64,000 nt of DNA from Plantactinospora endophytica (lineage in GTDB: Bacteria > Actinomycetota > Actinomycetes > Mycobacteriales > Micromonosporaceae): the NCBI RefSeq assembly GCF_016862915.1, contig NZ_BONW01000005.1:186001-250000 (forward strand). The letters run 5' to 3'. The position numbers and the translations under genes were made by a program. Positions 20,659-57,078 of the stretch are shown piece by piece (position 1 is the first letter of the stretch; each line of letters begins with the position of its first letter). Under the pieces are notes generated by a model. The model did not search any database. It was not told the origin of the DNA and was given only the letters and a program-made list of their open reading frames with translations.

Positions 20659-20754
20659 TGGCGGAGGCGTACGGGAATCGAACCCGCCCGACCGAGCTGC
20701 TCGGTCGCATCGGTTTTGAAGACCGTGAGGACCACCAGGCACCTGCCCGCCTCC
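20659..20754 (-). tRNA. selC: tRNA-Sec (anticodon TCA)
   Basis: On the minus strand the gene runs from GGAGGCG at 20754 to an encoded CCA at 20659 (96 nt). The anticodon loop reads CTTCAAA with TCA. The T arm contains GGTTCGATTCC, the variable arm is long, and the acceptor is closed by GGAGGCG/CGCCTCC. The length, the long variable arm and the UCA anticodon identify the UGA-decoding selenocysteine tRNA. The rest of the 20414-21064 gap holds no gene I recognise. Confidence 0.92.
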
Positions 20755-54028: not shown

Positions 54029-54700
54029 TCAGAACGTCACGTCCGAGCAGCCGTAGAAGGTCTCCGCGCTGTCGGACCGGGTCCACACCGAGTAGATGAT
54101 GTGGTGGCCGCTCTTGCCGGTGGGCAGCCGGCCGGTCCAGTAGTAGTGGCCCTCGTTGCTGCCGACGTTGCCCCGCTGCGGCGGGTTGGTGACCGAGGAG
54201 AACGGGGTGGACTCGAGGTCGCTCCAGGCCAGCGGACGGGTGGGGCTCCAGCCGTTGCGGGTGACGTAGAGGTCGAAGTGGCCGGGGTGCGCGGCCCAGT
54301 TGCTGTACCGGAACTCGACCGACGCGCCCGAACTGACCTGGGCCTTCGGGAAGTCGCTCCGGGCCAGGTCCCAGCCCCGGAAGGTGGAGTTGCCGCCGCT
54401 GCACAGTTGACCGTCCGGCACGAAGCCCCGGGTCCGGCCGGCACCGTCGGAGCGGAGCACGCTGAACCAGTTGTAGAGCGGGTAGACGCCGCTCACGTTG
54501 GCCGCGGCGACGCAGCCGGGGTTCTTGTTCACGATGTTGCCCTGCGGGGTCAGGCCGTCCCGGTAGCACGCGTAGGTGCGGCTCCCCGGGATCATCAGCG
54601 CGCCGTGTGCGGCGGCCTGGTTCGGTGAGATCACCGTCAGGAGTCCGGCGGTCAGCACGGCGCTGACGCCGACGACCGTGAGTCTGCGCAGGAGTTTCAC
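54029..54700 (-). CDS. AA10 lytic polysaccharide monooxygenase
   Basis: The protein has 223 aa. A signal peptide (1-31, ending QAAA) precedes His32, which becomes the N-terminal copper-binding His of HGALMIPGSRTYACYRDG. The second brace histidine is in NWAAHPGHFDLYVT. No extra carbohydrate-binding domain follows, so it is a single-domain enzyme. It cleaves chitin or cellulose oxidatively outside the cell. The GTG start follows AAGGGA. The 45-bp element at 54861-54905 lies 160 bp upstream. Confidence 0.94.
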   Translation of the reverse strand: MKLLRRLTVVGVSAVLTAGLLTVISPNQAAAHGALMIPGSRTYACYRDGLTPQGNIVNKNPGCVAAANVSGVYPLYNWFSVLRSDGAGRTRGFVPDGQLCSGGNSTFRGWDLARSDFPKAQVSSGASVEFRYSNWAAHPGHFDLYVTRNGWSPTRPLAWSDLESTPFSSVTNPPQRGNVGSNEGHYYWTGRLPTGKSGHHIIYSVWTRSDSAETFYGCSDVTF

Positions 54701-54860
54701 GAGTTGGGTCCCTTCTGTTCGACCACGGCCCGCAGTGGTTGTTCGTCGGGCGGCGCGGTCGGATGGAGACCGGCGGGGCGTACGGGCGTGGTGGTGGCGC
54801 CCGTCGCGCCCCGGCGCGGCTGTGGAGGGAAGAAAGTCGTGCCCGGATCCCACACTCGCC

Positions 54861-54905
54861 GTACGGTTGCCCCCGTACTGCGGCGATATGGACCATTGCA
54901 GCACG
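54861..54905. promoter_or_regulatory. 45-bp conserved element, copy A (upstream of LPMO)
   Basis: It is 40/45 identical to the copy at 56378-56422. It begins with GTACGG-6 nt-CCGTAC, a hairpin or palindrome, followed by conserved TGCGGCGATATG. It lies 160 bp upstream of the LPMO start on the LPMO's strand. I do not recognise the motif. Confidence 0.8.
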
Positions 54906-54992
54906 GGTGGCCGACTCAATCAATAGGTGTTCATCTATGTGCGGCGGACGGAAAGGTCCCGCATGTCCACCCCGGACCGGTCCGTCGGCGGA

Positions 54993-55433
54993 TCAGGCCA
55001 GTTGGAAGTCGGCGAAGTCGAAGCCCGGTGCCACCACACAGCTGACCAGGACCGGCTGCCCGCCCGCCGGTTCGGCCGCCTGCCACACGCCGCCCGGGAT
55101 CACCGCCTGCGGCGCTTCGCCGGCCGGCACGTCCGGGCCGAGCCGCACCTCCGTCGGCTCCGTCCCCGGTACCTCGGCCGAGCCGCCGAGCCACAGCCGC
55201 AGCGGGCCGCCCGAGTGCCACAACCACAGCTCGTCGGAGCGGACCACGTGCCAGCGGGACCGCTCCCCGGGGTACAGCAGGAAGTAGATCGCGGTCGCGG
55301 CGGCGCGCGGTCCGGCGTACCCCTGCGGGGTGAAGGCGTGCGTGGAGCGCCAGGTCTCGCGGAACCAGCCGCCCTCCGGGTGCGGAGCCAGGTCGAGCTG
55401 CTCGGCCAGCGGGGGTCGGCGCGGCGTCGTCAC
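54993..55433 (-). CDS. DUF985 cupin protein
   Basis: The protein has 146 aa. Core motifs are LDLAPHPEGGWFRETWRS, AIYFLLYPGERSRWHVVRSDELWLWHSG and QAVIPGGVWQAAEP, the DUF985 cupin pattern. GTG 55433 follows GGAGG at good spacing. DUF985 proteins may bind a sugar or cofactor; no activity is proven. Confidence 0.88.
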   Translation of the reverse strand: MTTPRRPPLAEQLDLAPHPEGGWFRETWRSTHAFTPQGYAGPRAAATAIYFLLYPGERSRWHVVRSDELWLWHSGGPLRLWLGGSAEVPGTEPTEVRLGPDVPAGEAPQAVIPGGVWQAAEPAGGQPVLVSCVVAPGFDFADFQLA

Positions 55434-55594
55434 GGGTTGACCTCCACTCGGGTACGGCCGCAGCCAGGCCCGGCCCGCCGGCCCACGAGCCGACGACCGG
55501 AGTCTAGGCGAGCGGGGTACCGCCGGACGGAAACGCCCACCGGACGACCCGCCCGCGCCGCCGGCCGCCCGCCCGCCAGAGGTCACCGCCGGAA

Positions 55595-55639
55595 GGTCGG
55601 AGGCCGGCTGGTCGGAGGCGCGCTGGTCAGAGGCCGGCG
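55595..55639. repeat. Three 15-bp units duplicating the 3' end of the 192-aa membrane protein gene
   Basis: Units of the form GGTCGGAGGCCGGCT cover 55595-55609, 55610-55624 and 55625-55639. The last contains the stop codon of the minus-strand gene that ends at 55627. Confidence 0.75.
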
Positions 55640-56205
55640 GCGGCATCATAACGGCGGCGCAGGTCGGTCATCTCCGATTCGGCCAGCGCCTCCTTGAGGG
55701 CCAACTCCTCGTACTTGTCCGGGAACATCTCCCGGAGCCGGTCGACGAACCTGACCTCGGCGGTCGCCTCGACCACCTGGATGCCCGGCGGTTCCTTGGA
55801 CATGTCCATGATCACCGGGCCGGCCAGCTTGACCGCCCAGTCCCAGGGACGCTGCTTCTCGGCGACCCCGCAGAGATGGAAGCCGTAGACCGTCTTGACC
55901 TCGGCCAGCGTGCTGACCTCGGCCGGTTCGAAACCGTAGACGTGCACTCCGCAGATCACCGCCGGCTTCTCGCCGTCGGTCGTCTGCTGTGCGTTGTGGC
56001 CCGCGTGCTGGTGCTGCTCCGGGTCGGCCGATTCCAGCGTGGTCCGCATCCGGGTCAGGATCTGCCCCCGCAGATCCGCCGGCCTGGCCTCCGAGCCGGC
56101 CGAATTCACCAGTACGACCGCTGTGGCCGACGCCGCCAGCAGGATGACCGCCACCCACACGAAGCGGTTGCGGTACCAGCCCGCGAAGCTGTTCCGGGTA
56201 ATCAT
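55627..56205 (-). CDS. Membrane-anchored protein of unknown function
   Basis: The protein has 192 aa. One TM helix spans about 15-33 (RFVWVAVILLAASATAVVLVNS), with the rest outside. The external part has a His-rich stretch (HQHAGHN, about 65-71) and two Cys. I do not recognise a family. The 45-bp element at 56378-56422 lies 172 bp upstream of its start, as it does before the LPMO gene, so the two may be co-regulated. Confidence 0.7.
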   Translation of the reverse strand: MITRNSFAGWYRNRFVWVAVILLAASATAVVLVNSAGSEARPADLRGQILTRMRTTLESADPEQHQHAGHNAQQTTDGEKPAVICGVHVYGFEPAEVSTLAEVKTVYGFHLCGVAEKQRPWDWAVKLAGPVIMDMSKEPPGIQVVEATAEVRFVDRLREMFPDKYEELALKEALAESEMTDLRRRYDAAAGL

Positions 56206-56377
56206 GATCGTGTCTCACCTCGTCGCCGGGTCTGTGCACATGGCAGATCTCGTCGGACGCGCCGTCGTTCGCGGCTACCTGTCCGTCGTCGTCGGAAACT
56301 GGCCCGGCGATGCAGCGCGGTCTCCGTACGAGTGGCGCGCTGCCGGCACTGCTGTGCTCCCGTGCTGGCCGTGCTCA

Positions 56378-56422
56378 GTGCGGTTGCCCCCGCACTGCGG
56401 CGATATGAGCCATTCCAGCACG
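56378..56422. promoter_or_regulatory. 45-bp conserved element, copy B
   Basis: It begins with GTGCGG-6 nt-CCGCAC. Compared with copy A, the third base pair of the hairpin changed from A-T to G-C on both arms, so pairing is kept. It lies 172 bp upstream of the 192-aa membrane protein. Confidence 0.8.
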
Positions 56423-56525
56423 CCCCGCCCCACCCCGGCAACATCGACGGTCCTCGCCGCCCCGCCCGCCCGGACCGGGGCACCCGCCCGCGCCGGGCTT
56501 GATCCGTCGGCCGGTGCTGCGTAGG

Positions 56526-56634
56526 TTCCCCACGCACCGCGATCAGCTCTCCCCACGCACCGCGCTCAGTTCTGTCGCCAGGCACCGCGAGCAGTTCTTC
56601 CCCACGCACCGTAAGCAGTTATTTCCCACGCACA
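56526..56634. repeat. Degenerate 24-29-bp tandem repeats upstream of ridA
   Basis: About four to five units of the form CCCCACGCACCG...CAGTT fill this stretch directly before the RidA gene. The gap 56206-56679 otherwise holds only the 45-bp element. Confidence 0.75.
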
Positions 56635-56679
56635 TGATCCATGATCGATGATCAGTACGTCGTGACGCAGGAGGGTGTT

Positions 56680-57078
56680 GTGACCGAGGTCGAGATCCAG
56701 CAGATCAACCCGGCCGGGCTGCCGGCGCCGACGGGCAACTACACCCACGGCACGCTGGTCACCGGCGGCAGCCGTACGGTCTTCGTGAGCGGTCAGGTGC
56801 CGTGGCGGGACGAGGCGGGGTACATCCCGGAGGACTTCGACTCGCAGTGCCGGCTGGTGTGGCGCAACGTCCTCGCCGTACTCGCCGAGGCGGGGATGGG
56901 GGTGCGGAACCTCGCCAAGGTGACGACGTACCTCTCCGACCGGCGCTATCGGGAGGCGAACTCGCGGATCCGCAACGAGGTGCTCGGCGACCACGCGCCT
57001 GCGATCACCATCATCATCACCGACATCTACGCAGAGGAATGGCTGCTCGAGATCGAGGCGATCGCCGTAGGCGACTGA
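56680..57078 (+). CDS. ridA: RidA-family protein
   Basis: The protein has 132 aa from GTG 56680, which has GGAGG 5 nt upstream. Motifs are QINPAGLPAPTGNYTHG, VFVSGQVPWRDEAG and VTTYLSDRRYREANSRIRNE. RidA proteins hydrolyse reactive enamine/imine intermediates from PLP enzymes. The conserved catalytic Arg lies in the RIRNE region or near it, as expected. Confidence 0.87.
   Translation: MTEVEIQQINPAGLPAPTGNYTHGTLVTGGSRTVFVSGQVPWRDEAGYIPEDFDSQCRLVWRNVLAVLAEAGMGVRNLAKVTTYLSDRRYREANSRIRNEVLGDHAPAITIIITDIYAEEWLLEIEAIAVGD

Follow-up and report, generated by a model that had tools for sequence, protein, structure and literature searches.

LPMOs are central to the breakdown of cellulose and chitin, and to our knowledge the timing and placement of these enzymes in bacteria are poorly known. 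Among described modes of control, the target RNAs of ANTAR proteins carry tandem hairpins in their 5′ leaders, with a hexaloop that has A at position 1 and G at position 4. CebR, a LacI-family protein, governs the cellulose regulon of Streptomyces with the operator TGGGAGCGCTCCCA (PMC4898821), and the TcrA box of Actinoplanes missouriensis is nnGCA(A/C)CCG-n4-GCA(A/C)CCGn (PMC12691653).

Here we analyzed a 64-kb stretch of the Plantactinospora endophytica genome (the window), in which a preliminary description had reported a 45-bp element upstream of two minus-strand genes, one of them encoding an AA10 LPMO. Each copy of this 45-mer is the center of a larger module, in which a promoter-like part is followed by a stem-loop with a G-rich loop.

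Two copies of a leader element in the window

Both copies lie where they had been placed, at 54861-54905 and 56378-56422 on the minus strand, and direct comparison revealed differences at 5 of 45 positions, in agreement with the reported 40/45 identity. Two of these five differences make up the paired A-T to G-C change that distinguishes the arms GTACGG/CCGTAC from GTGCGG/CCGCAC. The 6-bp inverted repeat of the original account is present, but the stem measures 8 bp in relatives (CAGYRCGG..CCGYRCTG, coding strand); likewise, the 45-mer is real, but the conserved block begins further upstream, at the promoter-like part. The distances to the downstream start codons were also as reported, at 160 bp for the LPMO gene (start 54700, GTG) and 172 bp for a gene encoding a 192-aa anchored protein, hereafter p192 (start 56205, ATG), and both gene assignments held (Table 1). 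The LPMO has 4oy7 as its closest solved chain (E 1e-63) and no further Pfam domain above threshold, while p192 matches nothing in Pfam or NCBIfam at E ≤ 1. The next gene after p192 in the window is a Cupin_5 gene, and the LPMO gene with its own leader comes after that.

Table 1 Features of the two leaders and their genes (window coordinates)
Feature	Position	Strand	Details
AA10 LPMO gene, 223 aa	54029..54700	-	LPMO_10 (PF03067, E 6.4e-57); signal-peptide-like start
5′-leader stem-loop, LPMO gene	54856..54886	-	Core GTACGG-GGGCAA-CCGTAC at 54861-54878; fold, covariation, arm swap
Extended -10-like TGCTGCAAT (TGnTGnnAT), LPMO gene	54895..54903	-	Inside the 45-mer; promoter role suggested by spacing
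-35-like TATTGA, LPMO promoter	54920..54925	-	TRTTGC-like hexamer in A4 and at 77/80 LPMO loci; putative function
p192 gene, 192-aa anchored extracytoplasmic protein	55627..56205	-	His-rich segment, two invariant Cys
Second conserved block CGGGAGCA, p192 leader	56355..56362	-	About 20 nt past the hairpin loop
5′-leader stem-loop, p192 gene	56368..56401	-	GCCG-CAGTGCGG-GGGCAA-CCGCACTG-AGCA-CGGC; RNAalifold, pair counts
Extended -10-like TGCTGGAAT, p192 promoter	56412..56420	-	Putative function
-35-like TGTTGC, p192 promoter	56438..56443	-	Preceded by GTCGA; putative function

Beyond the two copies, the window contains no further 45-mer with three or fewer mismatches, and none was found in 100 shuffles. 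Across the 9.7 Mb of the same genome, a covariance model of the leader (R2) gave only three matches at E ≤ 0.1, all of them in leaders of regulon genes: the two near-exact copies and a diverged third, recovered by the model (G000:C49:38603-38683) in front of a CBM2-containing LPMO. The two window copies are neither chance nor a dispersed repeat, the latter being ruled out by this copy number and placement. A dispersed repeat or a recent, functionless local duplication would suit two very similar copies 1.5 kb apart, as well as the chimeric look of the LPMO copy, which local gene conversion would give, but the scarcity of copies in the genome and their retention in front of the same families of genes across many genera make this extremely improbable. 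The LPMO copy combines an LPMO-type -35 region (CTATTGATT) with a p192-type start and hairpin, and most other LPMO leaders have GGGCUG-type loops. Gene conversion from the nearby p192 leader would explain the 40/45 identity; such an origin is possible and is compatible with function.

Between the p192 leader and a Rid-family gene (56641-57078) lies a tandem array of 24-bp units, TTCCCCACGCACCGCGAGCAGTTC (56526-56633; 4.5 copies, 81% matches). The two closest matches to the unit core in this genome are both inside the array, and many 3-mismatch matches elsewhere in the genome are probably due to chance.

A promoter-like part precedes the stem-loop

In a diverse alignment of 26 leaders (A4), TRTTGC is followed by TGnTGnnAT, with 17-18 bp between TTGNNN and TGNNAT, and the stem-loop lies about 10 nt beyond TGnTGnnAT. 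The first T and G, the second G and the A of this second block are invariant across the 26 leaders. Whereas the usual -10 hexamer has A at its second base, the block has G at that position. The two elements are the only sites in the window that match the pattern T[AG]TTG-N16-19-TGnTGnnAT. From motif and spacing, we infer that the two blocks form a promoter. The 5′ part of the 45-mer (TGCTGSAATGG) is then most likely the -10 region and not transcribed, which by its spacing would place the RNA start near CATATCG. The earlier proposal of a structured leader or regulator site stands in part: the leader is common to a regulon, with covariation and gene specificity, but the 5′ third of the 45-mer is likely an untranscribed promoter part.

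Distances from the hairpin core to the p192 start codon range from 64 to 293 nt (L005-L028), and this variability ties the element to the promoter rather than to the ribosome site.

Co-evolution of the hairpin arms

We searched 200 family genomes for the pattern of the element and identified it at 36 sites in 30 of them. Six of the seven genomes of the same genus (g1), including this one, carry two copies, and the remaining 24 pattern-positive genomes carry one copy each, in all 24 cases with a p192 gene downstream. The p192-type element occurs in genus g19 (G018, G052), and the LPMO coordinates of G052 match those of Asanoa ishikariensis. We aligned 29 of the 36 sites, omitting L009, L015, L016, L023 and the second copies of G058, G104 and G113; the stem is broken by an insertion in L023 and by CCACAC in the 3′ arm of the second copies of G058 and G104.

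For the 8-bp stem of this 29-site set (CAGYRCGG-GGGCAA-CCGYRCTG), 96.9% of cells were paired and 17 cells were changed on both sides, each value being reached in 0/500 shuffles that do not keep relatedness; three pairs with changes on both sides were reached by 39/500 shuffles and five further pair types by 499/500. The diverse 26-leader set behaved similarly under the same shuffles, with 86.5% of cells paired and 18 cells changed on both sides (each 0/500), while its count of pairs changed on both sides was reached by 63/500 and its further pair types by 492/500. These pair counts yielded covarying pairs additional to the one first noticed. Run on 28 relatives, RNAalifold predicted 12 pairs in the p192 hairpin, 3 of them with changes on both sides. 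RNAalifold also added a GCCG/CGGC pairing below a bulge in the 28 p192 leaders, present at the window p192 copy as well, but this extension never varies and is no proof of pairing by itself.

We then exchanged arms between leaders and compared own with random pairing over 5000 permutations. Across all gene families, and with one anchor-less leader left out, the 98 distinct arm pairs gave -20.75 kcal/mol for own arms versus -17.55 kcal/mol for random pairing (0/5000), which corresponds to a cost of about 3 kcal/mol for swapped arms. The energy difference persisted among divergent representatives (n = 19, 0/5000; n = 11, 2/5000) and was not significant for seven very divergent ones (290/5000). 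Stem length averaged 8.36 for own arms versus 7.54 (sd 0.18) for random pairing (0/5000), with 143/5000 for 10 divergent representatives. Together, the arm swaps and pair counts indicate that each arm evolves in step with the other, a pattern that suits RNA better than it suits a protein-binding site in duplex DNA.

Folds of single sequences carry much less information than the arm swap, such tests being weak in GC-rich DNA. The mean stem per sequence was 8.8 bp, barely above the 7.8 bp of shuffles; stems of at least 8 bp occurred in 44/64 leaders versus 53% of shuffles, and mean energy was -25.3 versus -21.8 (sd 4.5) in shuffles. A G-rich loop appeared in 48/62 single folds, and many LPMO leaders had z near 0. 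When 73 LPMO leaders were aligned by sequence only, the RNAalifold consensus was weak and the stem did not stand out in mutual information.

These data bear on whether the inverted repeat is instead a DNA operator, bound in double-stranded form by a dimeric repressor or activator with the RNA fold incidental. Its position at about +10 to +35 is usual for a repressor, its core letters are highly conserved within the p192 family, and the second block described below could be seen as one of two tandem sites. However, arms that diverge yet stay complementary would not keep a protein reading of the DNA, and between gene families the arms vary more than the loop; we consider an operator quite unlikely.

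A conserved loop and a second conserved block

Most p192-type leaders have the loop GGGCAA, as does the LPMO leader of the window. Stem sequences vary widely while the GGGC loop is kept, for example around the arms GGTGACGTG/CGCGTCACC of one LPMO leader, and the LPMO leaders of the sampled loci have very different stems, mostly around GGGCTG-like loops. A second block follows the stem-loop: CGGGAGCA was exact in 20/29 p192 and Cip1-like leaders versus 0.1 expected from shuffles, and CGCGAGGGC in 61/77 LPMO leaders versus 0.1 expected. Among six LPMO leaders of the window's type, two contain the shorter block CGGGA (0.6 expected), and the window's own LPMO leader lacks the second block as such. 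The block looks similar by eye to the hairpin's loop side, and it may be a second contact site.

A simpler function would be passive, with a 5′-end hairpin that guards the mRNA from nucleases and a promoter for an alternative sigma factor or activator that carries all of the regulation. This would account for a promoter part that is constant across gene families, a stem-loop that begins within about 10 nt of the inferred transcription start and a leader of variable length. A stabilizer, however, needs neither a conserved loop nor a second block, yet GGGC-type loops and CGCGAGGGC or CGGGAGCA are kept, and we regard a purely passive role as rather unlikely.

The conserved loop and second block would also suit a ligand-binding riboswitch, responding for example to copper or a sugar signal and perhaps switching to a second hairpin that uses the CCAGCACGG stretch; this alternative is the minimum-energy fold in some p192 leaders. 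But the alternative hairpin (CCGYRCTGG/CCAGCACGG) does not covary, with standard pairs in 8/28 p192 leaders at one position, so we claim no two-state switch. Given also the small core and the lack of a U run after the hairpin in most leaders inspected, a riboswitch is very unlikely. An outer stem, GTGCTGG/CCAGCAC, was dropped as well, because one base on its 5′ side is free and it would overlap the -10 part.

The module marks a small set of secreted-protein genes

The model R2, built from the 26 leaders of the diverse alignment, was run on 38 hand-picked family genomes and matched 37 of them at E ≤ 0.1, with the qualification that it favors pairing by construction and that some matches are training sequences, which match by construction. 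We classified the 73 best matches (E ≤ 0.027) by tblastn with p192, LPMO and Cip1-like queries, which placed 62 of them upstream of one of these genes (33 LPMO, 26 p192 and 3 Cip1-like). Specificity followed score closely: matches of at least 27.3 bits were upstream of one of the three gene kinds in 61/61 cases, versus 1/12 below that score. Strong copies lie in front of functionally linked genes rather than at random positions. The shared leader that the preliminary description proposed for a two-gene regulon is supported, but the regulon is larger: this genome has three copies, and each relative with a strong match has between one and three classified ones.

For a sample free of hairpin bias, we took the best 80 of 117 LPMO relatives, chosen by protein similarity, and searched for the promoter pattern without a hairpin term. 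It was present with at most one mismatch at 77 of those 80 loci; the three loci without it (L210, L216 and L233) are all from Asanoa. A second type of LPMO leader (L093, L094, L096, L100, L110, L111, L114) has a similar promoter, NRTTGC then RTGnTSNAATGK, followed by another conserved stretch, GTGSCGGTCGCGAGTGGCC or close to it, that may form a hairpin with a GCGAGU loop.

At the class level, R2 matched 5/296 genomes at E ≤ 0.001 under stricter filters, which lose weak matches, and three of these were in Micromonosporaceae; the two outside the family were at chance level and had no LPMO- or p192-like gene among the called ORFs. At the order level, with the same kind of filtering, the model R1 matched 45/298 genomes at E ≤ 0.01 and exceeded 30 bits only inside the family. 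We took the matches in other families (19/45 genomes, about 22-29 bits) as chance, and three of them look by eye like coding sequence.

The Cip1-like protein is secreted and matches PF21340 (E 8.1e-9) and Cip1 (3zyp, E 7.4e-5); fungal Cip1 is reported to be co-regulated with cellulases (PMC3764139). In 7/7 main loci from other genera with wider flanks, the next same-strand gene after p192 encodes a second type of AA10 LPMO (Pfam was run on four of the seven). A p192 paralogue (L291, G010:C1:314000-323000; 58% identical) has a diverged leader copy and precedes an alpha-galactosidase-like gene (Melibiase_2, NPCBM). A profile of the p192 protein matched 2/246 genomes across the phylum, both Micromonosporaceae. 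The AlphaFold model of p192 (pLDDT 79.7) had no PDB match at E ≤ 0.001. The invariant residues among 32 relatives (alignment A5) include H65, C85, H110 and C112, a pattern that makes a metal role possible.

A model for the leader

The larger module, its gene specificity and the co-evolution of its arms are direct products of the computation, and we consider this anatomy of the LPMO-regulon leader strong. To it we add a mechanism in which the transcription start, the role of the RNA form, the trans-acting factor and the signal are proposed. Our preferred reading, held at just short of even confidence, is that the element serves as promoter and 5′ leader for a small regulon of secreted polysaccharide-oxidizing genes in Micromonosporaceae and that its stem-loop is recognized at the RNA level. 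From a promoter made up of TRTTGC and TGnTGnnAT, the mRNA would start at about the A of CATATCG, and its first 35 nt or so would fold into a stem-loop that displays a G-rich loop (GGGCAA, GGGCUG or GGGGCUGA). In most leaders the second conserved motif, CGGGAGCA or CGCGAGGGC, comes next. A trans-acting factor, protein or small RNA, would then most likely recognize the stem-loop as RNA and set the stability or early elongation of the regulon mRNAs. The outcome would be joint production of AA10 LPMOs, the p192-LPMO pair and the Cip1-like protein.

A more specific version is tentative and, in our estimate, somewhat unlikely: a new class of regulatory RNA leader, so far confined to Micromonosporaceae, that coordinates copper-dependent LPMOs with the His/Cys-bearing anchored p192 through an RNA-binding factor recognizing both the G-rich loop and the downstream motif. 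If true, LPMO genes would thereby gain their first known structured leader, as far as our searches go, and p192 would be a new LPMO partner, for example in copper loading or electron supply. More generally, the shared promoter and hairpin point to a common, so far undescribed control of cellulose-attacking enzymes. A gene-specific leader found at LPMO genes across much of a family of bacteria offers a direct handle on their regulation and connects them with an unstudied anchored protein and a Cip1-like protein.

Comparison with known systems

The preliminary description had not recognized the element as any known riboswitch, and no Rfam 15 family reaches its gathering score in the window leaders. 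Across the whole window only a selenocysteine tRNA does so (RF01852, 74.6 bits; 20663-20754, minus strand). At E ≤ 10, the region 54600-56700 gave one sub-threshold sR40 match (56507-56565), and eight relative loci at E ≤ 1 gave three sub-threshold microRNA matches only.

The ANTAR targets are similar in having a leader hairpin, a hexaloop, conserved loop letters and a second motif downstream, but the loop here is GGGCAA and not the hexaloop with A1 and G4, and we rejected this assignment. Like the leader, CebR coordinates secreted cellulose-degrading genes in an actinomycete; the conserved feature here, in contrast, is a promoter plus a covarying stem-loop, and reading through both window leaders revealed no box of the form TGGGAGCGCTCCCA. 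The CebR-like TGGAAGCGCTCCCA, and no leader, stands upstream of two further LPMO genes in the genome (L126 and L127, on C4 and C28), which are 77-78% identical to the p192-adjacent LPMO of other genera. The replacement of the leader by a CebR-like box suggests that this LPMO type may have changed regulation in the genus.

In the p192-type element, GCAACCG coincides with one half site of the TcrA box and keeps the correct 11-bp register. The complete box, with two GCA(A/C)CCG 11 bp apart, was rejected: the other half is GCAGYRC here, and most LPMO leaders have GCTG there. GCAACCG is absent from most LPMO leaders of the 80-locus sample, and the published account places TcrA boxes upstream of start sites (PMC12691653), which also differs from the arrangement here.

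A search of the open-access literature found no description of such a leader in titles or abstract openings, and the promoter and stem-loop leader is newly described as far as our searches go. The cis-regulatory leaders of Rfam 15 share with it a covarying stem, a conserved loop and a position upstream of a related gene set. With compensatory changes in its helix and a constant association with functionally related genes, two hallmarks of cis-regulatory RNA leaders, the hairpin most likely acts as an RNA-level cis-element of the LPMO regulon.
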